52,519 nucleotides of DNA from a virus. This document shows, piece by piece, positions 1,080 to 50,586 of the stretch. Position numbers and translations under genes: made by a program. The stretch spans positions 1 to 52,519 of IMG/VR virus record IMGVR_UViG_3300046714_000321. One strand, 5' to 3'. Position 1 is the first letter of the stretch. The number at the start of each line of letters is the position of its first letter. Below the pieces are notes generated by a model that saw only the letters and a list, made by a program, of their open reading frames with translations, did no database searches and had not been told where the DNA came from.

Positions 1080-2156
1080 TTACTTACCGCCCTTTTCGAA
1101 GGCCTTTCGATTGGCCTCCATCATCTTTTCGCGCGCGCTCCAAGCTGACGGTTCGTCGCTGGAGTCTTCGCGGGTGATTTCCTCCGTGGTGCCAGTGGCG
1201 GCCCGGCGGACCTCCGAAAGGCTTTCCTCGTTTTCGTCCTTACGCGCGTTCTCGCACGCGATATCGAAACGAACCTGGAGGTACGTATCCGAGAGGCCGT
1301 CCATCTTGAGGGCGGGGCTCTCCTTCTTGATCACGGCCTCAAGGATCTGACGATCCGTCTTACCGGCCAGGTCGGCGTCCGCGCCGAGCACCACGCGAGC
1401 GTCCTCACGGAGCTTCAACGCAGCGACCAGGAGGCCGGGGAGTTTATCCTCCGCGTCCTTGCGAGCCGACTTTGCCTTATCGAGCTCCGCTTGGAGGGAG
1501 TCAGCGCGCGCCGTCTGCTTCTCGGCTTCCGCCTTAGCAGCATCGCGCTCCGCTTCGACCTTGGCCAGTAGGGCCTTCGTTGCTTCGTCCATGCCCAAAG
1601 GTGTAGAAGCGGGCGAAATAACAGCAGAGTCTGTTACCTGATCGCCCTTGCCATCCAACCGGAGGCGCACATCCGACCCCGCGCGGCCACGATCGACCAA
1701 AGCCGTGTGGTTGTATCGGATATGCGTCTGAACGGCATCGTAACGACCCCCTTCATAATCCCCAGGAGTGTCGTTCAGGCTGACGTCATAACCGCAAGAA
1801 AGTTCAACCTTCCCGGATTTCACAACGGAGCATGCCTTAGCGTCTTGCACATAAACGGTCGCCCGGACAAATGCCCCGTCCTGTCTCACATCATCGCCAA
1901 TGTGACCCACTGCGTATTTCTTCCAATTATCTGGCGTAACCAAACCGGGATGATCGACAGTTAAAGGTGCCCCCTTCAAGGAGTCCAAACTGTCCTTCTT
2001 GAAAACTTCTTCCGGAGTGCGGAGCTCGCGTCGCTCCGTTCCGTCCTCGTTGTAATAAACGAAGATACCAGTCCGGGTCAGCGTTGCATCTGCCACCATT
2101 CCACCGGACGGCGATTCGCGAACCGAGTCCAATCGGAATTTATCGAATCGGAGCAT
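1080..2156 (-). CDS. DUF2213-type prohead protease with scaffold-like C-terminus
   Basis: The protein has 358 residues from ATG 2156; TTG 2162 would add two. Residues 1 to about 165 match the DUF2213 type, with GAPLTVDHPG, a GKVELSCGYD block and YNHTALVDRGRAG near the end of the domain. These are the conserved His and Ser positions expected of this putative head-maturation protease. Residues about 190-240 form a charged Ala/Glu/Lys coiled coil (KVEAERDAAKAEAEKQTARA), as in protease-scaffold fusions. It probably directs assembly of the shell and then cleaves the scaffold. The start lies in a small hairpin, TACCC-CTTT-GGGTA, that includes the A of ATG. Confidence 0.8.
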   Translation of the reverse strand: MLRFDKFRLDSVRESPSGGMVADATLTRTGIFVYYNEDGTERRELRTPEEVFKKDSLDSLKGAPLTVDHPGLVTPDNWKKYAVGHIGDDVRQDGAFVRATVYVQDAKACSVVKSGKVELSCGYDVSLNDTPGDYEGGRYDAVQTHIRYNHTALVDRGRAGSDVRLRLDGKGDQVTDSAVISPASTPLGMDEATKALLAKVEAERDAAKAEAEKQTARADSLQAELDKAKSARKDAEDKLPGLLVAALKLREDARVVLGADADLAGKTDRQILEAVIKKESPALKMDGLSDTYLQVRFDIACENARKDENEESLSEVRRAATGTTEEITREDSSDEPSAWSAREKMMEANRKAFEKGGK

Positions 2157-2169
2157 ACCCAAAGGGGTA
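2156..2169 (-). promoter_or_regulatory. Start-codon hairpin of the protease gene
   Basis: On the minus strand TACCC (2169-2165), CTTT and GGGTA (2160-2156) form a 5-bp hairpin whose last base is the A of the ATG. The same hairpin with another loop (TACCC-TGTA-GGGTA) lies at the start of the tail chaperone gene at 34060. No ordinary Shine-Dalgarno site is seen. A translational control role is inferred. Confidence 0.4.
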
Positions 2170-2173
2170 GCCT

Positions 2174-2743
2174 TTACCGGAGAAGAGCATTCAACCGATG
2201 CCGATTTTCATAGGCCAAGCAGTCTTTTCGCCACGCATAGGACGCATCGGATTTCCGGCGATTGCAACCCCCGCAAAGCCAGGAAACATTGTCCGACACG
2301 TATCCCCGGTCAGGATCCACCCTATCGATGCTGGGTCGATCTTGAACCGATCCTGAAGAAGTCCCCGCCAGCAATTTTTGGCATAGGGGGCACTTGTCCG
2401 GAATGGGGCCAAGTGCAGCCAGCAAAGCCCCAATTTCGTCGAAAGCCCAGCCTGCTTTCTTCGCACGGTGGCGCGCCGCGCAAACTAGATAAGTGGGCGT
2501 GCACGCACGCCGGTACCCCGCCTGCATTTCGGCGTAGTAGCCAGGATGCTCCTGACGCCACTTGCGCTGATCATACCTGTTACGCGCCTTGTAGGCCTCT
2601 CTGAACGCCTCGTTCCCGTTGTGAGCCTGGTAGTGAGGCTCCTTGCCGCGCGATTTGTACGCCGCGTTTTGATTCCTCAAGCAGTCTCTACAAGCGCCGT
2701 CCGGACGGAGGTTTTCAGACCCGCAATGTGTGCATGCAGACAT
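2174..2743 (-). CDS. HNH-type endonuclease with zinc ribbons
   Basis: The protein has 189 residues. The N-terminus has CTHC and CRDC pairs about 10 residues apart (zinc ribbon). A basic middle region is followed by CPLC near residue 118 and then RPSIDRVDPDRGY, a conserved Asn and CGGCNRRKSD. This is the pattern of endonuclease VII/HNH nucleases that are often free-standing homing enzymes in phages. It is the first gene of the head operon and lies 12-18 bp upstream of the protease. It may be a selfish element or may serve packaging. The start ATG lies two bases after the predicted transcription start, so the mRNA is almost leaderless. Confidence 0.7.
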   Translation of the reverse strand: MSACTHCGSENLRPDGACRDCLRNQNAAYKSRGKEPHYQAHNGNEAFREAYKARNRYDQRKWRQEHPGYYAEMQAGYRRACTPTYLVCAARHRAKKAGWAFDEIGALLAALGPIPDKCPLCQKLLAGTSSGSVQDRPSIDRVDPDRGYVSDNVSWLCGGCNRRKSDASYAWRKDCLAYENRHRLNALLR

Positions 2744-2751
2744 CTAGTAAC

Positions 2752-2757
2752 AGTATA
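2752..2757 (-). promoter_or_regulatory. Near-leaderless promoter of the head operon
   Basis: On the minus strand TATACT (2757-2752) is followed by six bases, then AG, then ATG 2743. A GTAGCCGAC stretch precedes it, as in other boxes of this genome. Transcription would start about two bases before the start codon of the HNH gene. Confidence 0.5.
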
Positions 2758-2973
2758 GTCGGCTACTCAGCTACCCAAGGATCTTACGTTCCATATATAA
2801 TGCCTTTTCCATACCCACCACGCCCGCCCCACCCATTACCCCTCCCCCTCTTATTTCTCTTCTTATACACATAAAGATGGGTAGCTTAGGTAACATGTGG
2901 AGAATCACTCACTTTTTCGATAAGTAGCGGTTAGGTAGCCTACCCATCTGCCTAGGTAGCGACCAAAGAAAAA

Positions 2974-2998
2974 GCCCCGGTTCTTTGGAAACCGGGGC
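2974..2998 (-). terminator. Intrinsic terminator of the primase gene
   Basis: A perfect 9-bp stem, GCCCCGGTT (2974-2982) with AACCGGGGC (2990-2998), has a 7-nt loop. On the minus strand it is followed by TTTTTCTTTGG. It lies 30 bp beyond the stop codon of the primase-helicase gene. Confidence 0.9.
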
Positions 2999-3027
2999 CG
3001 GCGAGGCCGATTGGCTGGGAAAAAGAT

Positions 3028-5157
3028 TTAATTCGGGGCTGACGGCGTGGGGTCGCGTCCTGGCACCGGCGGGAGCATCTCGGATAGGTGTGAGGGCACT
3101 TCCCAGAATTTCTGGTTATGGCCATCGACCTTTCGCACACGGACCTTGCACCCCAGACGCCGGAGTATTGAGGACACGCGGTTGGTCTCCCTTCGACCCA
3201 CACCCTTCAAGTCCGAAGGCTGGCCGATGCACCCCGTGAATACCTCGCCGGCCGTGCGGAACTCTTTTCGACCCCGGAGCCACGCCTCGATCTTTGGAGA
3301 CCAGGCATCCACCTCCACGAAGGGCGAGCGGACTACCTCCAGAACCCCGTCGTCCTCGTAGTGGTGCTCGAAACGGGGATCTCGGGCCAGCTCGTACGCG
3401 GCGGCCCAGATCCGGTCCCGGTTGGCCTTCACGTATTCGATGTCCACCTTCCCGGGTATGGGAATGGGCCAGTAACGACGGTCCCCGGTGGCGTCTCGTA
3501 GAAAGTCATCGTCATTGGTGGTCCCCACGAAAACCACCTGGCGAGGTACCTCCACCTCCGCGCGTTCGTAGGGCGGTCGGTAGGCGTCCACCGTCCGAGA
3601 CAGGAACTCCTTCGCCGTCTGGTTTTCCTGGCGCAGCATGGCATCCAGCTCGCCTACCTCCACGGCCCAGCACCCCCGGAGCGCGCCGCACGCGTCCTTG
3701 CTTCGCAGGTCGGGCAAGCTCTCGCGGTACCAGGGAAACATGGCCCGGACGAAACGAGACTTACCCACACCCTGGCCACCCTGCAAAACCAGCATGGTGT
3801 CCACCTGGCACCCCGGCTGCAAAACACGGCGCACGGCCGCGACCAGGAACTTACGCAGCATGTCGTCGTAAACCGGATCCGCCGTGCCGAACACACGCGC
3901 CGACAACCCATCCAGGATGGCACCCCGGTTTTCGGCTGGCCCCAAGCTGTCCAGGTACTCGACCACCGTATGGAAGGCGTTCGTGTGCGCGACCTTCAAA
4001 ACAGCCCGTCGGATATCGTCCACCGGCGCCAAAATGCCGTTCACGCTCAACCAGAGCCGGACCCCGGAAATGTCCTCATCGCTCAACCCTCGCCCGTTCT
4101 CCGAATCCCGCATATCGACCGGGGGATCGACGGCGAAAACCTTCCGCTGGAATTCGTCATACTGGAGCACACCCTCCCAGTCGGGGTGGTTTTTTAGACC
4201 CGCAATCAGGTCATCAAAGGCCACCTTTCGCCGTTGACCCTGGGCCGTGTCGCCGTTCTGCACCGAATACTTATGCGCCGGGTTTTTCGTACGACGTTTC
4301 GGCTCCGGCGCCCGCTCCACCTCTGGCCTCGGCCGTTCAATCATCGTCCAGTCAGCGCCCAGGTACCCCCAGTCCATCTCGGTCTCGGTCTGGATGATCT
4401 TCCGCATCAGGTCGGCCTCACCCCACGGCGGCTGGCATGCGGAGTTCCACTCCTCCAGGAGCTCCAGCACGACAGGACGCGGCAAGCCCAGCTCCCGGCG
4501 AAGTTTCCCGGCGAGGATAAACGTGTGCGTTGAGCCACCCTGGCCCTCGATGGCTGGCCCCCACCGGTCGATCAGGGCACGCGCCTCCAGGAGGTTCCGA
4601 CCCATCTGGCTTGCGGTGCACGTGTAAGGCTCCGTCCCCTGGCGCTCTTTGGCCTGGTTTCTCAATAAGGCCGACAAGAGCCACGGCGGCAGTTTCGAGG
4701 GGGCCATGGCCAGCACCACCTCGTAAGTTCCGCCCGCCAAATTAACGCCGGGACCCACAACCTGGCCTCCGTCACCCCGGATATCCACACCGACGCACGG
4801 CCGCCCCTGGGTATTCCTCACGGGAAACCCGGGGTGTGCAAAGTACAGGTGAAAACCGCCCGTCGGCGTCCGGACCGTTAGGGTCGGGGGCACCGTCTGG
4901 CCCTGCTCGGCCACCCACTCGGCCCAGTTGCGTAGGCCGTTTTTCCCGTCTTTTTCATCGATATCGATGACCACGACGCCGGACGGCGCGCCCGTTACCA
5001 CTCCATACGGCTGGCCCTCCGCGACACCCTCCGTCCACTCTTGCCAGTTCGCGACAGTCGGGTGCTTACCCGTCGATTTGCCGCATGATTCGCCCGCGGG
5101 ACACTCGCAAATCCCGTCCGGGCCGACACCCCACAAGGGGATTTTGCGCACGGCCAT
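3028..5157 (-). CDS. Primase-polymerase / VapE-like helicase
   Basis: This 709-residue protein has two parts. Residues about 1-170 are a Prim-Pol (archaeo-eukaryotic primase) domain: the VVVIDIDEKDG acidic pair near residue 62, GGFHLYF near 102 and VDIRGDGGQVVGPG near 125. The C-terminal half is a D5/VapE-type superfamily 3 ATPase with Walker A GGQGVGKS near residue 460, an acidic VEVGELDAM segment and FVGTTNDDDFLRD (sensor region) near 545. It should prime and unwind DNA at the phage fork. It is transcribed alone on the minus strand, divergent from the replication operon that starts at 5201, and ends at its own terminator. Cysteines near residues 18-25 (CECPAGESC) may bind metal. Confidence 0.9.
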   Translation of the reverse strand: MAVRKIPLWGVGPDGICECPAGESCGKSTGKHPTVANWQEWTEGVAEGQPYGVVTGAPSGVVVIDIDEKDGKNGLRNWAEWVAEQGQTVPPTLTVRTPTGGFHLYFAHPGFPVRNTQGRPCVGVDIRGDGGQVVGPGVNLAGGTYEVVLAMAPSKLPPWLLSALLRNQAKERQGTEPYTCTASQMGRNLLEARALIDRWGPAIEGQGGSTHTFILAGKLRRELGLPRPVVLELLEEWNSACQPPWGEADLMRKIIQTETEMDWGYLGADWTMIERPRPEVERAPEPKRRTKNPAHKYSVQNGDTAQGQRRKVAFDDLIAGLKNHPDWEGVLQYDEFQRKVFAVDPPVDMRDSENGRGLSDEDISGVRLWLSVNGILAPVDDIRRAVLKVAHTNAFHTVVEYLDSLGPAENRGAILDGLSARVFGTADPVYDDMLRKFLVAAVRRVLQPGCQVDTMLVLQGGQGVGKSRFVRAMFPWYRESLPDLRSKDACGALRGCWAVEVGELDAMLRQENQTAKEFLSRTVDAYRPPYERAEVEVPRQVVFVGTTNDDDFLRDATGDRRYWPIPIPGKVDIEYVKANRDRIWAAAYELARDPRFEHHYEDDGVLEVVRSPFVEVDAWSPKIEAWLRGRKEFRTAGEVFTGCIGQPSDLKGVGRRETNRVSSILRRLGCKVRVRKVDGHNQKFWEVPSHLSEMLPPVPGRDPTPSAPN

Positions 5158-5200: not shown

Positions 5201-6805
5201 ATGTCCGATATCGAGGACCTGAGACCCTGGGACGGAAAAGCCTACTGCGACGAGGAGGTCAGCCCCACCCAAATTGGCACCTGGCGCGAATGCCAGCGGA
5301 AATGGGCGTGGAAACGGATCGGGAAAATCGACGTCGGCCAGAAGGCCTCGGCCGCGCTTGGTACGCGCACGCATAAACAGCTGGAGCATTACCTGGCTGG
5401 CCAGTCCGTGGATTTCATGGATGAAACGGGCGAGATACTGGCCCCCGCGGTGGAGCATTTTCCCGCCCCTGGCCTCCCCGGCATGAAAAGCGAGTGGGAA
5501 TTTCGCCTGGAGGCGCCCAAGGCGGGCGTGATTCTGCATGGCCTCATGGATATTTGGGTGCCCCCAACCCCCGAGGATCCCTGGGCAAATATCTTCGATC
5601 TGAAAACCACGAGCGATATTAACCGCTGGGCGAAAACGCCGGAGGACCTCCAGACGGACCCCCAGGGCGTTATCTACGCGGGCGTCGGCATGGCTTACGG
5701 CACGACGGACCGCGTTAACCTCAATTGGGTCTATACCCAGACGCGAGGAACCAAGAAATCCAAGAAGGTGCATCTCCCCGTAATCGCTGGGGAAGGCGTC
5801 TTTAGAGAAAACTGGAAAAATAATCTCGATACCGCCCAGGAAATCGTCCGTAACTACAAGCGCGACAAGCGGGAGCGAGGCTCTCCGGCCTGCAAGCCTG
5901 GGGACGAGGTTTCTAAGATAATTGTTACCAGGTATCAACCAAACCCCGCCGCGTGCGATGGGTTCGGTGGGTGCCCGTACCGGGAGTTTTGTCCGGACGT
6001 TGACCCCTTTTCCGGCCTTTTCGGCGAAAACAAGGAAGACATGAGCCAAGCGAATATCGATGACCTGATCAAGGGCCTCGGGGCGCAGCACCCGACCGGA
6101 GGCGCGCCCGTGCAGATCAACCCACCGGAGCGAAGCCCCGAGCCGAACGCTGATCCCATGGCGGCCCTTCGGGCGAAGGTGGCGAGCGGGAATAGCGTGC
6201 AGCTGAGTCCGGCGGAGATCGCTCTTCTCCTGGGCCAGCCCCCGCCGGCCGCGCCGACCGTGACGGCCACGACCCCCATTCCGACGTCCCTCCCGTCCTT
6301 GTCTGAGGTCCTGCCGGCCCCTCGAGCGTCCCAGGCCGTCGCGGCCGCGGTGGGAGGCGGGGTGTCACCCCCGGCCGAGAAGCCCAAGCGAGGGCGTCCC
6401 AAGAAGGAAACGGCCCTTTCGGAGATATCCACCCCCATTATCCCGGCTTCAGAGGAAGCGGAAGCCGTGGTGAGCGGTATGCTTGCGTCGAGTAAAGCGG
6501 CCCAGGTCACGTCGGCCGACCCCATCGGGTGCCTTTACGTCAATTGCGCCCCGCTCGGGGAGGCGTGCGCGTCGCTGGGGGATATCCTCCCGGACCTGGC
6601 GGATGGTATCCGTGCCAAGCATGGCAAGGCTGATTACCGTTTCTTCGAATACGGCCAGGGCCCCGGCCATCTCTCCGAGGAGCTCAAGTCCTATCTGGAG
6701 GGGAAGAGCATCCCGGCCCTCGCCGTGGACACGCGCACGCCGGAAGGTGCCATTCTCCTGTACGCCCTTTTCCAGGCGTCCGCGCGGGTGGTCCAGGCCC
6801 GATGA
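5201..6805 (+). CDS. PD-(D/E)XK (RecB/Cas4-like) nuclease with extra C-terminal domain
   Basis: The protein has 534 residues. Residues about 10-60 (SPTQIGTWRECQRKWAWKR, LGTRTHKQLEHYL) match the start of the PDDEXK_1/RecB nuclease family. The catalytic core is GLMDIW near 113 and FDLKTTSD near 130. Late cysteines (CDGFGGCPYREFC, near 250-262) recall the Fe-S cysteines of Cas4/AddB enzymes. After a Pro/Ala-rich linker with an AT-hook-like KRGRPKK near residue 398 comes a C-terminal domain of about 90 residues (YVNCAPLGEACASLGDILPD) that I do not recognise. It leads the replication operon and probably acts in recombination or DNA processing. The nuclease call is firm; the exact role is not. Confidence 0.8.
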   Translation: MSDIEDLRPWDGKAYCDEEVSPTQIGTWRECQRKWAWKRIGKIDVGQKASAALGTRTHKQLEHYLAGQSVDFMDETGEILAPAVEHFPAPGLPGMKSEWEFRLEAPKAGVILHGLMDIWVPPTPEDPWANIFDLKTTSDINRWAKTPEDLQTDPQGVIYAGVGMAYGTTDRVNLNWVYTQTRGTKKSKKVHLPVIAGEGVFRENWKNNLDTAQEIVRNYKRDKRERGSPACKPGDEVSKIIVTRYQPNPAACDGFGGCPYREFCPDVDPFSGLFGENKEDMSQANIDDLIKGLGAQHPTGGAPVQINPPERSPEPNADPMAALRAKVASGNSVQLSPAEIALLLGQPPPAAPTVTATTPIPTSLPSLSEVLPAPRASQAVAAAVGGGVSPPAEKPKRGRPKKETALSEISTPIIPASEEAEAVVSGMLASSKAAQVTSADPIGCLYVNCAPLGEACASLGDILPDLADGIRAKHGKADYRFFEYGQGPGHLSEELKSYLEGKSIPALAVDTRTPEGAILLYALFQASARVVQAR

Positions 6806-9885: not shown

Positions 9886-10368
9886 ATGCAGGCAGATAAT
9901 TTTTTCGGCGGAATGAAGGATACGGAGCTCTCCAAAAAGGGGACCTACCTCACGGACGGCATTTTTCGCCTTCGTGTGAAGTCTACCGAGCGGGTGGATT
10001 TCCGTGACGGTGTGAAAAAGGGTTACGCGGTCACCGTGGAGGTCATCGAGACCCCGGATCCCGTCAAGCACCCGGTGGGTTCCGAGCGCTCCTACTTCGT
10101 GACACTTCGGCCCGGCGACGACGGCCGCAAGATGTTTATGCAGAGCGTCAAATCCTTTATCGTCGCGGCCCTCGGTTATGACGCGAAGGTAGACGAGGAA
10201 AAGATCAAGTCGGAACTCGATCCGAAAATCGAGCAACTGGCTCTCGCCTCCACGCAAAACAAGGCACTTCTCGCGGGTCGCGAAGTGATCTGCGAAGTGA
10301 AATCCGTCCCCAAGAAATCGAAGCCGACGGAGATGTTTTCCCGGCACACATTCTCCCCCGCAAAATAA
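9886..10368 (+). CDS. Probable single-stranded DNA-binding protein
   Basis: The 160-residue protein (MQADNFFGGMKDTELSKKGT) has an alternating beta pattern (DGIFRLRVKSTERVDFRDG, YAVTVEVIETPD) like an OB-fold, and ends in a Lys-rich tail (VPKKSKPTEMFSRHTFSPAK). It sits between the helicase and the polymerase with a GAGGAT ribosome site, the usual place for a phage SSB or DUF669-type protein. SSB is the best guess from shape and context; no catalytic motif is visible. Confidence 0.55.
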   Translation: MQADNFFGGMKDTELSKKGTYLTDGIFRLRVKSTERVDFRDGVKKGYAVTVEVIETPDPVKHPVGSERSYFVTLRPGDDGRKMFMQSVKSFIVAALGYDAKVDEEKIKSELDPKIEQLALASTQNKALLAGREVICEVKSVPKKSKPTEMFSRHTFSPAK

Positions 10369-10390: not shown

Positions 10391-10419
10391 TTGCCCGTAA
10401 TCTAGCGTCGCGCTAGATA
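10391..10419 (+). promoter_or_regulatory. Sigma-70-type promoter of the structured leader
   Basis: TTGCCC (10391-10396), a 17-bp spacer and TAGATA (10414-10419) form a good promoter, with transcription predicted to start at G 10426. The spacer and -10 are filled by an inverted repeat. A second promoter of the same design lies at 36387-36414. Confidence 0.7.
10400..10418. promoter_or_regulatory. Palindromic operator in the promoter spacer
   Basis: ATCTAGCG (10400-10407), TCG, then CGCTAGAT (10411-10418) is a perfect 8-bp inverted repeat overlapping the -10. The same dyad with one mismatch occurs at 36394-36414. The position suggests a repressor site. The candidate proteins are the HTH proteins at 13031, 22180 and 24414, or the 50221 protein. 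Confidence 0.6.
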
Positions 10420-10425
10420 CACCTT

Positions 10426-10677
10426 GTCCCCTTGCAGCTCATGCGGGGGTTGACGCCGGTCAAGGAAACCGGCCGCCATGGTTGGCAAGTCGACCCCCGT
10501 ATTTCACTGTATCTGTAATCACTACCGGGGATAAGCCTCGGTTTCTGGGTATGGTGCGCCCTGGCGTAAGCCTTGCCGCATCGGCCATGTAGGCCCACAA
10601 GCGCCCTCCGTTCTCCGGGGCGTTCGGGCCCCAGTGCACCCAGAAGCCGAGGCTTATCCCTGGAAGGGAAATAGTCC
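10426..10677 (+). ncRNA. Structured leader RNA / non-coding RNA
   Basis: This gene-free stretch has strong RNA-like pairing. P1 pairs 10441-10454 with 10489-10502 (14 bp with three G-U pairs). Inside it are P2 (10455-10460/10468-10473, GCCGGT/ACCGGC) and P3 (10475-10478/10483-10486), which make a three-way junction with only three unpaired junction bases. P4 pairs 10528-10550 with 10638-10660, 23 bp with one G-U wobble and no mismatch. Within its loop are small hairpins (GGC-gtaa-GCC at 10563, GGCC/GGCC at 10583-10595, GCGCCC at 10601 with GGGCGT at 10618). P4 ends two bases before the AAGGGA ribosome site of the next gene. It may be a 5' regulatory leader or an independent small RNA. Confidence 0.65.
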
Positions 10678-11082
10678 ATGGTCACTGAGATTACCGAGAA
10701 GAAAAAGCAAATCCCGGGTGCAGAGGATATCCCCGGCTGGATGCGCACGGCGGCCAAGCTAGTGGCCGATGGCCTCGATCCCATTCACGACCTGGCGATC
10801 AGCATCTCCGAGAAGGGCGCCACCCTCGTGGGCCGCATGGTCCTGGGCCGCACCATGCGGGCCATGGCCGAAGAGACGAAGGACCCCGAGTACAAGGTCG
10901 GCCTCCTGACGATGGCCGCCACGGTCGAGAAGTTCCCGGAGCCGCACCCCGAGGGCCACCCGGCGATCTGTTTCGTCCTTTTTGAGTGGTCGACCGGGAC
11001 CCTTCTCTGCCGCTTTTTTGACAAGCAGGCGACGCCCGAGGTGGTCGAGTTCAAGCCGAACGCGGTCGGGGGCCAGGCCTGA
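10678..11082 (+). CDS. Protein of unknown function downstream of the structured leader
   Basis: The 134-residue protein (MVTEITEKKKQIPGAEDIPG) begins with a charged segment. It then has a mixed alpha/beta body ending in a hydrophobic beta stretch (GHPAICFVLFEWSTGTLLCRFF). GGAAGGGA at 10662-10669 is a good ribosome site 8 nt before the ATG. It is the only operon member preceded by its own long leader and promoter, and it ends 2 bp before the DNA polymerase. Translation may depend on the leader fold. I do not recognise the family. Confidence 0.7.
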   Translation: MVTEITEKKKQIPGAEDIPGWMRTAAKLVADGLDPIHDLAISISEKGATLVGRMVLGRTMRAMAEETKDPEYKVGLLTMAATVEKFPEPHPEGHPAICFVLFEWSTGTLLCRFFDKQATPEVVEFKPNAVGGQA

Positions 11083-11084
11083 TC

Positions 11085-13034
11085 GTGCGCTTCACGTTCG
11101 ATACGGAAACCGCCCGGTTTCGCCCCGGGGTCATGGCCCCGGAGCTGGCGTGCGTTTCCTACGTGGTGGCCGGCCAATACCCCCAGCTGGTACACGTGAA
11201 CAACTCCCGGGACGTTATCTGTACCTGGCTGAGAGACGCCGATCTGATCGTCGCCCACCACGCCCCTTACGACCTGGCCGTAATCTGCGCCCACTGGCCC
11301 GACCTTATCCCGGCCGTTTTCGCGGCCCTTTCAGCCGACCGGATTACGGACACGAAAATCCGGGAGCAACTGATCATGCTCGGATTCGGCCGGTTCAAGG
11401 GCCACCGGGACAAGTCGGGCAAGTGGACGAAAACCCAGTACTCGCTGGACATGCTGGCCCGGCGGTACCTGGGGCACCAGATCGACAAGAAGGACCCTGA
11501 GATCGAGGCCATCCGCCTGGGTTTCGGCCCCCTCCGACACCTCCCGCTGGACCAGTGGCCGCCCAAGGCCGTGGCCTATGCGAAAGAGGACGCCGATCTT
11601 ACGGACCGGATTTTCCAGCTCCAAGAGAAGGCGCCCCCGGAATTCCTGGTCAACCAGTACGCCCAGACCCGTTACGCGTTTTGGCTCCACCTGGCGAAAA
11701 CCTGGGGCCTCCGGACGCGCACGGAAGGCGTTACCGCCCTGACCCAGGAGGTCGAACGGCGGAAAGAGGACGTCAAGAAGGAGCTCATGGGCCACGGCCT
11801 CGTGCGCGACGACGGGAGCCGGGACACGAAGGAGGCCGCCGCGTTGATGATCAAGGTCTGCACGGAGGCCCAGAAGGAGGTCCGCCGGAACGACCCCACC
11901 GAGAAGATGCTGCGGGACGGCCAGACCCAGGGATCCGTCCAGCTGGACGAGGACGCGTGCCGTTACTCCGAGGACGACACCATGCTCCTTTATGCGGAGT
12001 ACACGGTCCTGGGGTCGATTCTGTCCAAGGACGTGCCGGCCCTGGCCGCGGGGGTGGAGTTTCCGATCCACACCGATTTCGGCCTGGCCGAGTCAGGTCG
12101 GACGACGTCCGCCAGCCCCAACGTCCAGAACTTCCGTCGATCGTCGGACGAGGAAGGGAGCCTAACGGCCGGCCTCCAGGGGATTCGGGAGTGTTTCGTG
12201 CCGCGCGCCGGCCACGTCTATTTCCAGGCCGATTACCCGTCCCTGGAGCTCCGGACCCTGGCCCAGGCCTGCATGAGCCTGGTTGGGCACTCGGAACTGG
12301 CCAAGGTCCTCAACGCGGACGTGGACCCGCACACTTCCCTGGCCGCGGAGATCCTCGGGATCCCCTACGACGAATGCAAGGCGCGCCTCAAGGCGGAAAA
12401 GGACCTACCGAAAGGCTCGCAAAAGCCGTGTGATAACGCCCGTCAGACGGCCAAGGTCGCGAACTTTGGGTTTCCCGGAGGCCTCGGTTACAAGTCCCTG
12501 ATTTCTTTCGCCCGTAAGTCCTACAAGGTAATTCTGTCGGAGGACCAGGCACGGGATCTGAAACGCAGGTGGCTCGCCCGATGGCCGGAAATGCGGGAGT
12601 ACTTCGATTTCGTCGCCCGCCTGACGGACGAGGACCGGCCCGTGGTCCAGCTGTTTTCCAACCGGATCCGGCGCGGCTGCACGTACACGAGCGCCTGCAA
12701 CACCTACTTTCAGGGCCTGGGCGCCGACTGCTCCAAGCTCGCGGGCTGGGAAGTTTCGAAGCGCTGTTACCTGGAGCACTTGAAATCCCCGCTTTTTGGC
12801 TCTCGGATCGTGAACTTCGTGCACGACGAAATTATTGGGGAGTGCCTGGATAACGATCAGGCCCACGACGTGGCCACGGAGCTGGCCAAGGTCATGAAAG
12901 ATGCGGCGAATCGGCTCCTTCCGGACGTGCCGTTTATCGACGTGGAGCCGGCCCTCATGGCCTACTGGAGCAAAAACGCGAAGACGATCCGGGACGAAAA
13001 CGGCCGCCTCAAGGTCTGGGGGCGCGACAAATGA
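11085..13034 (+). CDS. Family A DNA polymerase with 3'-5' exonuclease
   Basis: This 649-residue protein starts at GTG. The exonuclease domain has FDTET at residue 4, HHAPYDL near 62 and YAKEDADLT near 165. The polymerase domain shows motif A QADYPSLELRTLAQ near 382, motif B RQTAKVANFGFPGGLGY near 452 and motif C NFVHDEIIGE near 578. These are the catalytic residues of DNA polymerase I-type enzymes, so the protein should be an active replicative polymerase with proofreading. The usual DYSQIELR of motif A reads DYPSLELR here. No 5' nuclease domain is attached. It overlaps the next gene by an ATGA. Confidence 0.95.
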   Translation: MRFTFDTETARFRPGVMAPELACVSYVVAGQYPQLVHVNNSRDVICTWLRDADLIVAHHAPYDLAVICAHWPDLIPAVFAALSADRITDTKIREQLIMLGFGRFKGHRDKSGKWTKTQYSLDMLARRYLGHQIDKKDPEIEAIRLGFGPLRHLPLDQWPPKAVAYAKEDADLTDRIFQLQEKAPPEFLVNQYAQTRYAFWLHLAKTWGLRTRTEGVTALTQEVERRKEDVKKELMGHGLVRDDGSRDTKEAAALMIKVCTEAQKEVRRNDPTEKMLRDGQTQGSVQLDEDACRYSEDDTMLLYAEYTVLGSILSKDVPALAAGVEFPIHTDFGLAESGRTTSASPNVQNFRRSSDEEGSLTAGLQGIRECFVPRAGHVYFQADYPSLELRTLAQACMSLVGHSELAKVLNADVDPHTSLAAEILGIPYDECKARLKAEKDLPKGSQKPCDNARQTAKVANFGFPGGLGYKSLISFARKSYKVILSEDQARDLKRRWLARWPEMREYFDFVARLTDEDRPVVQLFSNRIRRGCTYTSACNTYFQGLGADCSKLAGWEVSKRCYLEHLKSPLFGSRIVNFVHDEIIGECLDNDQAHDVATELAKVMKDAANRLLPDVPFIDVEPALMAYWSKNAKTIRDENGRLKVWGRDK

Positions 13035-36207: not shown

Positions 36208-36390
36208 GTGACTATCTCGGACCGACTGAGGGAGGAAGCACGGACGCTACTGGAGCTGGCCGACGAATTGGACCGGACCGAGAAAAAGGCGAAAACCGAC
36301 CGGCGGAAATCCGTTGTCCTTCCCGAGATATCCGAAACGCGCCGGGAAAAAGCGGCAGATAAGCTCCGAAAAATGGGTCTGGTTACTTGA
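36208..36390 (+). CDS. Small charged helical protein
   Basis: The 60-residue protein starts at a leaderless GTG (MTISDRLREEARTLLELADE). It is a charged coil with many Lys/Arg/Glu residues (RTEKKAKTDRRKS). A promoter with operator overlaps its stop. The function is unknown; it may be regulatory. Confidence 0.55.
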   Translation: MTISDRLREEARTLLELADELDRTEKKAKTDRRKSVVLPEISETRREKAADKLRKMGLVT

Positions 36391-36414
36391 CCGAATCCAG
36401 CGCGGCGCTAGATT
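36387..36414 (+). promoter_or_regulatory. Operator-controlled promoter of the 36424 gene
   Basis: TTGACC (36387-36392), a 16-bp spacer and TAGATT (36409-36414). The spacer and -10 hold the dyad AATCCAGCG (36394-36402), CGG, CGCTAGATT (36406-36414), matched in 8 of 9 pairs. It is the same dyad as at 10400. The start would be near 36421, a 3-nt leader before ATG 36424. Confidence 0.7.
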
Positions 36415-49976: not shown

Positions 49977-50127
49977 GGGAAAGGGCTAGCCCCGAGGCGG
50001 CGCGCCTGGCCAGATCCCATGCGTCAAACCACGTATCGGCCTCAACCGTGGGGTGCCCCGGTACCTGTACCCGACACTTACCATCTTTAAATTCAAAGCG
50101 AAAACCCAGCGACTGTACGGGCCTCAC
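49942..50127 (-). CDS. Small protein before the adaptor
   Basis: The 61-residue protein starts at GTG 50127 (RPVQSLGFRFEFKDGKCRVQ). It resembles a small beta domain with a helix (DTWFDAWDLARRAASGLALS). It overlaps the adaptor by 35 bp. The TAGGGT six bases plus A before its GTG could be a weak leaderless signal. The function is unknown. Confidence 0.5.
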   Translation of the reverse strand: MRPVQSLGFRFEFKDGKCRVQVPGHPTVEADTWFDAWDLARRAASGLALSRDAHAISDPLP

Positions 50128-50220
50128 TCATATCACCCTAGCGAAATGACGCGCTGCGCTTGTCCAATTCTTAGATATCAGCTATCAGATAATGGTCCTA
50201 CGAAAGGGAGGTTAACGGCC
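50128..50220. promoter_or_regulatory. Divergent promoter region
   Basis: GATATCAGCTATCAGATAAT near 50174-50193 combines several box elements. On the plus strand it is followed by AAAGGGAGG (50203-50211), the strongest ribosome site seen in this genome, 9 bases before ATG 50221. The minus strand leads to the connector operon. The exact -10 elements are uncertain. Confidence 0.45.
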
Positions 50221-50586
50221 ATGAGCCAACTAGAAACCCGCATCCAGGAGATCCTCACCCGCGCCGTGGCTGAAATCGTCAAGGTCTTCCAGGAGACCCC
50301 GCCGGCCATGTGGTCGATGGTCCCCCCGGGTCCGGCCCCCGCCGTGGCACGACGCGAGACGATCCAGAGCCGGGTGGCCAAGGCCAACGGAGCCATTTCC
50401 CTGGACGTGGCCGTGGCCAGGGTGAAAAAGTTCCTGGAGTCCCACCCGGGGCAGGGTCTGACCGGCATTTCCACGGGGACCGGCCTCGAAAAGGACATGG
50501 TGTCCCGGGCTACCTTGGCCCTGCTCCGAACCGGCGAGGCCCGGAGGAAGGGCGAGAAGCGGGGGACGAAGTACGTCCTAATCTGA
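50221..50586 (+). CDS. Putative winged-helix DNA-binding protein
   Basis: The protein has 121 residues from ATG 50221, chosen for its AAAGGGAGG site. The N-terminal helix resembles an oligomerisation segment (LETRIQEILTRAVAEIVKVF). The C-terminus (LESHPGQGLTGISTGTGLEK, DMVSRATLALLRTGEARRKG, TKYVLI) is a winged-helix pattern. It could be a transcription regulator. It stands alone with its own promoter and terminator. Confidence 0.7.
   Translation: MSQLETRIQEILTRAVAEIVKVFQETPPAMWSMVPPGPAPAVARRETIQSRVAKANGAISLDVAVARVKKFLESHPGQGLTGISTGTGLEKDMVSRATLALLRTGEARRKGEKRGTKYVLI

Follow-up and report, generated by a model that had tools for sequence, protein, structure and literature searches.

A predicted structured RNA, most likely a regulated operon leader, upstream of the polA operon of a tailed phage

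The window analysed here is the whole 52,519-nucleotide stretch of IMG/VR record IMGVR_UViG_3300046714_000321, a 52.5-kb viral contig in which portal, terminase, major head protein and integrase genes were found, which indicates a tailed phage that is probably temperate. On its + strand, a gap without long reading frames separates an SSB-like gene, so named as a guess from its position alone, from gene 10678 and the family A DNA polymerase gene (polA) that follows it. The features of this locus, and the distant near-copy of its promoter, are as follows.

9886-10368, + strand: SSB-like gene (putative name), with homologues at the same position in relatives and without a family match
10391-10419, + strand: predicted promoter, TTGCCC (10391-10396), 17-nt spacer, TAGATA (10414-10419)
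10400-10418, between the -35 and -10 boxes: operator-like palindrome ATCTAGCG-TCG-CGCTAGAT, a perfect 8-bp inverted repeat
10426-10677, + strand: predicted structured leader RNA (z -7.95), with a probable start at about G10426 judged from the spacing to the -10 box
10433-10437/10507-10511, + strand: P0, a weak stem of 5 bp that encloses the three-way junction in the fold
10441-10454/10489-10502, + strand: P1, a 14-bp stem with two G-U and no A-C pairs, closing the three-way junction
10455-10473, + strand: P2, hairpin GCCGGU-CAAGGAA-ACCGGC within the three-way junction
10475-10486, + strand: P3, hairpin GCCA-UGGU-UGGC within the three-way junction
10478-10534, + strand: possible upstream frame of 18 codons, MVGKSTPVFHCICNHYRG; its AAGGA lies in the loop of P2 and its stop in the P4 5' arm
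10525-10550/10638-10663, + strand: P4, a stem of 26 contiguous pairs with two G-U and no A-C pairs
10664-10669, + strand: ribosome site AAGGGA of gene 10678, immediately 3' of P4
10678-11082, + strand: gene 10678, 134 aa, the first gene after the leader, without a family
11085-13034, + strand: family A DNA polymerase, the next operon gene after gene 10678
36387-36414: second promoter TTGACC-N15-TAGATT, a near-copy of the first, upstream of gene 36424

A search for useful relatives of the gene 10678 product and of the 36424 protein found none, and single-sequence fold models of the two were poor (mean pLDDT 43 and 47, respectively).

The tightly folded feature at 10426-10677 is real. The + strand of 10400-10700 folds at -154.2 kcal/mol, compared with a mean of -110.6 (sd 5.5) for 100 dinucleotide shuffles, none of which was as low (z -7.95), and the excess of pairing beyond chance reported in the first-pass annotation therefore holds; the - strand of the same interval folds less strongly (z -5.44). 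In a coarse scan of 262 non-overlapping 200-nt segments of the contig, the structured gap was the most extreme (z -4.1, the next being -3.75). The 14-bp stem and the tight three-way junction that it closes are present where that annotation had placed them; taken alone, such a stem is unexceptional genome-wide, each shuffled contig holding 0-5 stems of at least 14 bp. The other stem, previously described as 23 bp with a single G-U pair, does end before the ribosome site of gene 10678 but is longer: those 23 bp are the inner part of P4, which has 26 pairs, two of them G-U, and closes a branched 87-nt apex. P4 exceeds every other inverted repeat of the contig in length, and 20 shuffles of the whole contig gave maximum stem lengths of 13-21 bp, all below its 26 bp. 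The earlier statement that the gap has no coding frame stands for long frames but overlooked the SD-preceded 18-codon frame at 10478-10534, which may be a chance occurrence. P1 and P4 together contain four imperfect pairs, each of them G-U rather than A-C on the + strand; random transitions would give this outcome with a probability of about 1/16, which lends slight support to selection at the level of a + strand RNA. Long-stem imperfections pooled over the equivalent slots of relatives have no strand bias (22 G-U vs 20 A-C), so this argument about strand belongs to the window alone.

Searching the whole window with the Rfam covariance models gave nothing at threshold, in agreement with the first reading that no named family has this layout, and GOLLD, ROOL and other families remained below their gathering scores throughout. 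GOLLD and ROOL are large ornate phage RNAs located near tRNAs, many GOLLD RNAs exceeding 800 nt (PMC12286853); they resemble the window RNA in being highly structured, non-coding and of phage origin, with tRNAs nearby (here in the slot of relatives), but they are far longer and gave no Rfam match here. A tRNA or tRNA-derived RNA in the gap was rejected, the results of ARAGORN, Rfam and a slot-specific tRNA model (best score 7.1 bits) all being unconvincing, and no cloverleaf with a T-arm was found there by tRNA models. A homologue of the RNA was sought in a phage collection and in the contigs of 16 relatives, and none was found; what relatives have in common with the window is the slot, not the RNA sequence. 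The arm sequence GGGATAAGCCTCGG had 70 matches in 2.9 million viral contigs, about the chance level, and its match in the relative contig L007/L075 sits outside any hairpin. A mobile element or repeat was also rejected, as there is no second copy in the contig and no kin in the phage collection. The proposal of a structured, non-coding + strand leader or small RNA is backed by the folding statistics together with the lack of an Rfam match at threshold, and is further backed by the duplicated promoter and operator and by the RNA genes that relatives carry in the same slot.

The promoter that had been proposed upstream of the gap is weak by consensus, with 7 of 12 sigma-70 positions matched by our own count, and was missed by the consensus scan, but it has the near-copy at 36387, and these two are the only contig matches of that box form. 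The palindrome between its boxes, which the first-pass annotation had overlooked, recurs at 36395-36413 with one mismatch, so that two copies (the first included) were found in the contig at up to three mismatches against 0.09 expected, for a pattern that was chosen after the first copy had been seen; the second copy keeps the boxes, the palindrome and the position before a gene. An operator shared with another phage promoter (36387-36414), as would be looked for in a repressor-controlled early promoter, is present here, and from their sequences the promoters at 10391 and 36387 are taken as a shared, presumably regulated promoter form. The near-copied operator-like palindrome inside a matching promoter makes regulation of the start near 10426 likely, despite the weak consensus. 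The operator sequence had nine matches in viral contigs, which is chance-like, and none of the nine lay near homologues of the compared window genes, so the operator looks specific to this phage. Only about 10 nt separate the 36387 promoter from the start codon (ATG) of gene 36424, the mRNA of which would therefore be almost leaderless; the product of this gene has a weak match to phrog_4265. A MarR-like transcription regulator (PHROGs) encoded at 50053-50586 is a candidate binder of the shared palindrome.

About 80 related loci were collected by polymerase and helicase searches, and the closest relatives keep the order helicase, SSB-like gene, slot and polA. In relatives at approximately 45-50% protein identity, the slot is occupied by genes for tRNAs, by aberrant tRNA-likes and by long hairpins that frequently have a U-tail. 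Genes for tRNAs or tRNA-likes were present at the slot in L008, L079-L084, L137, L152 and L156, including tRNA-Leu(UAG) in L081, L082 and L083, tRNA-Gln(UUG) in L084 and, in L008, L079 and L080, aberrant tRNA-likes that precede long stems (13-18 bp). The slot-specific model, built from six of these slot tRNAs, found further tRNAs or tRNA-likes in L122, L152, L193 and the L079-like L120, with scores of 24-71 bits in relatives vs a best of 7.1 bits in the window gap. T-runs follow the long slot hairpins of L079, L080, L008 and L126, and in the L126 slot a stem of 15 bp closes a branched apex and, with a U-tract, stands just before polA. Stems are denser in the helicase-polA interval than elsewhere in the relatives' loci (2.7 vs 1.0 per 10 kb), and minus-strand-type stems are likewise denser (2.5 vs 1.0 per 10 kb); as both strand senses are enriched, by about 2.5 times, the result points to a higher density of long inverted repeats in the interval and is not in itself a sign of RNA.

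The tRNA-like of L008 (5501-5573) has a 6-nt anticodon loop, and those of L079 (5470-5546) and L193 (1664-1753) have loops of about 8 nt, as judged by eye; the contig pieces of L008 and L079 each hold this tRNA-like as the sole one found. These abnormal-loop forms are possibly decoy, frameshifting or degenerate tRNAs. Two distant relatives, L080 (5533-5601) and L188 (8884-8961), have Trp-type tRNA-likes in which the D-loop is very short (GCACUGGGUGC, GGACUGGGUCC), and that of L080 matched the tRNA-Sec model with an E of 9e-4, below the threshold of the model. Upstream of the latter, at 5443-5529, a 15-16-bp stem closes a four-way junction with three hairpins and is a candidate second ornate RNA of the slot. 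L187 (11240-11323) and L194 (10142-10225) carry homologous 22-bp branched hairpins with an A-tract before and a T-tract after the stem, in which the inner hairpin has one compensatory change, CUUGG/CCAAG to CUCGG/CCGAG (by eye). In L004, a 27-bp inverted repeat around 43 nt lies in the helicase/SSB-like gap (4270-4366), and the helicase frame (1701-4238, 845 aa) has an apparent intein after DEC of a DECH-like motif (CFTGTTLV...VVHN; by eye).

The interpretation tentatively preferred for the window is that of a 5' leader of the polA operon, with an operator-controlled start near 10426 and a probable RNase III cut in P4. Transcription of the + strand would start near 10426 from the operator-controlled promoter, and the leader would fold into two independent modules, the three-way-junction RNA and the branched hairpin with the 26-bp stem. 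Transcription would then pass P4 and continue into gene 10678 and polA. No U-tract follows P4 on either strand (AAGGGAAATAGT follows it, with TAGTGATTACAG on the other strand), which suggests that the polymerase reads on and that the RNA is at least a leader of the polA operon. Unlike the long slot hairpins of relatives, which have T-runs, P4 is not the combination of GC-rich hairpin and T-run that marks an intrinsic terminator, and the terminator scan reported none. With neither a tRNA-like nor a U-tract in the window, the transcript most probably continues into the polA operon, for which it would serve as leader.

In this reading, host RNase III would most likely cut the P4 duplex, releasing the upstream three-way-junction RNA as a stable fragment and leaving a polA operon mRNA with a short leader. 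The 26 contiguous pairs of P4 exceed the 22-nt minimum RNase III target size (about 22 bp of duplex) used in PMC5371410, which cites RNase III sites of lambda and T7/T3 and genes opened by RNase III. The predicted leader resembles RNase III-processed phage leaders, such as the lambda N leader, lambda cIII and the T7 early mRNAs, in that a long stem, ending near a ribosome site, lies within the leader ahead of the genes of an early or replication operon, but it has no sequence relation to them, and its cutting is a prediction. Sequestration of the ribosome site was tried as an explanation and rejected, the opening energy being about 3 kcal/mol whether or not the leader was included (full leader, P4 alone and most simulated-cut trials). 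Since this energy is not lower after the simulated cut, a switch in which cutting opens the site for translation is without support.

It is possible, if doubtful, that the region is instead an independent small RNA gene, with a stable, trans-acting three-way-junction RNA, alone or together with the branched hairpin, having replaced the tRNA or tRNA-like of relatives. The tRNA-Leu, tRNA-Gln and aberrant tRNA-like genes of the slot favour such a replacement, as does the succession of tRNA-like and long hairpin in L008, L079, L080 and L152, which mirrors that of the P1 module and P4; the ornate ROOL and GOLLD RNAs are likewise found near tRNAs (PMC12286853). The likeness thus extends to the same slot and to a compact RNA followed by a long hairpin, but neither a cloverleaf nor a T-arm is present in the window RNA, and its hairpin lacks a U-tract. 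The absence of a terminator after P4, and of a tRNA-like in the gap by ARAGORN, Rfam and the slot-specific model (7.1 vs 24-71 bits), argues against a separate gene.

An improbable reading treats the inverted repeats as a DNA element, namely a replication origin, a recombination site or the remnant of a mobile element. Replication genes adjoin the gap, its 26-bp inverted repeat is near-perfect and a 27-bp inverted repeat occupies the helicase-SSB gap of L004, but the locus has no iterons and no skew turn at 10.4 kb, its repeat occurs only once in the contig, and the stronger fold of the + strand and the exclusively G-U imperfections also speak for RNA. Very unlikely is a leader-peptide attenuator, in which translation of the 18-codon frame would decide whether P4 forms. 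The AAGGA lies 11 nt before the ATG, and a terminating ribosome would cover the P4 5' arm because the frame ends inside it; however, chance readily yields short frames preceded by an SD site, the ATG is sequestered within P3, the frame lacks a run of regulatory codons, and P4 neither is a terminator nor clearly masks the ribosome site.

The chance is slighter still that the RNA is a promoter-proximal element for processive antitermination, letting the polymerase pass downstream terminators as HK022 put does. A structured RNA beginning an operator-controlled phage transcript and the terminator-like hairpins in the slot of relatives would fit, but the window has a three-way junction, unlike put, which consists of two short tandem hairpins. 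Least credible is a C4-type antisense RNA (RF01695) on the minus strand at 10504-10439, the only permissive-setting Rfam match to the three-way junction: the permissive cmscan aligned the whole model, with the three-way junction, the long closing stem and a shared hairpin (GCCGGUUUCCUU; CCGGUUUCCUU on the minus strand of the window), but the score (18.4 bits, E 0.5) is far under the gathering score of 45, the single-stranded segment that the model has after the second hairpin is missing, two G-U stem positions of the + strand become A-C mismatches and the neighbouring genes are on the + strand, so membership was rejected.

A regulated and structured leader of the phage replication operon is the likeliest identity of the region, which may in addition give rise to a separate small RNA. 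There is a small probability that it represents a new class of small phage RNA, occupying the tRNA-like slot, switched on by a regulator of the phage itself, stable during replication and serving as the polA leader as well; if so, the stable RNA might, for example, counter host defence or provide a scaffold for processing. If expressed, the RNA would extend phage replication control by a structured leader or small RNA that as yet has no name. Across a broad phage group, the helicase/SSB-polA slot holds changing RNA genes, comprising ordinary tRNAs, aberrant tRNA-likes (anticodon loops of 6 or 8 nt) and branched long-stem hairpins, and it is therefore a defined place in which to seek phage RNA genes and to ask why defective-looking tRNAs persist.
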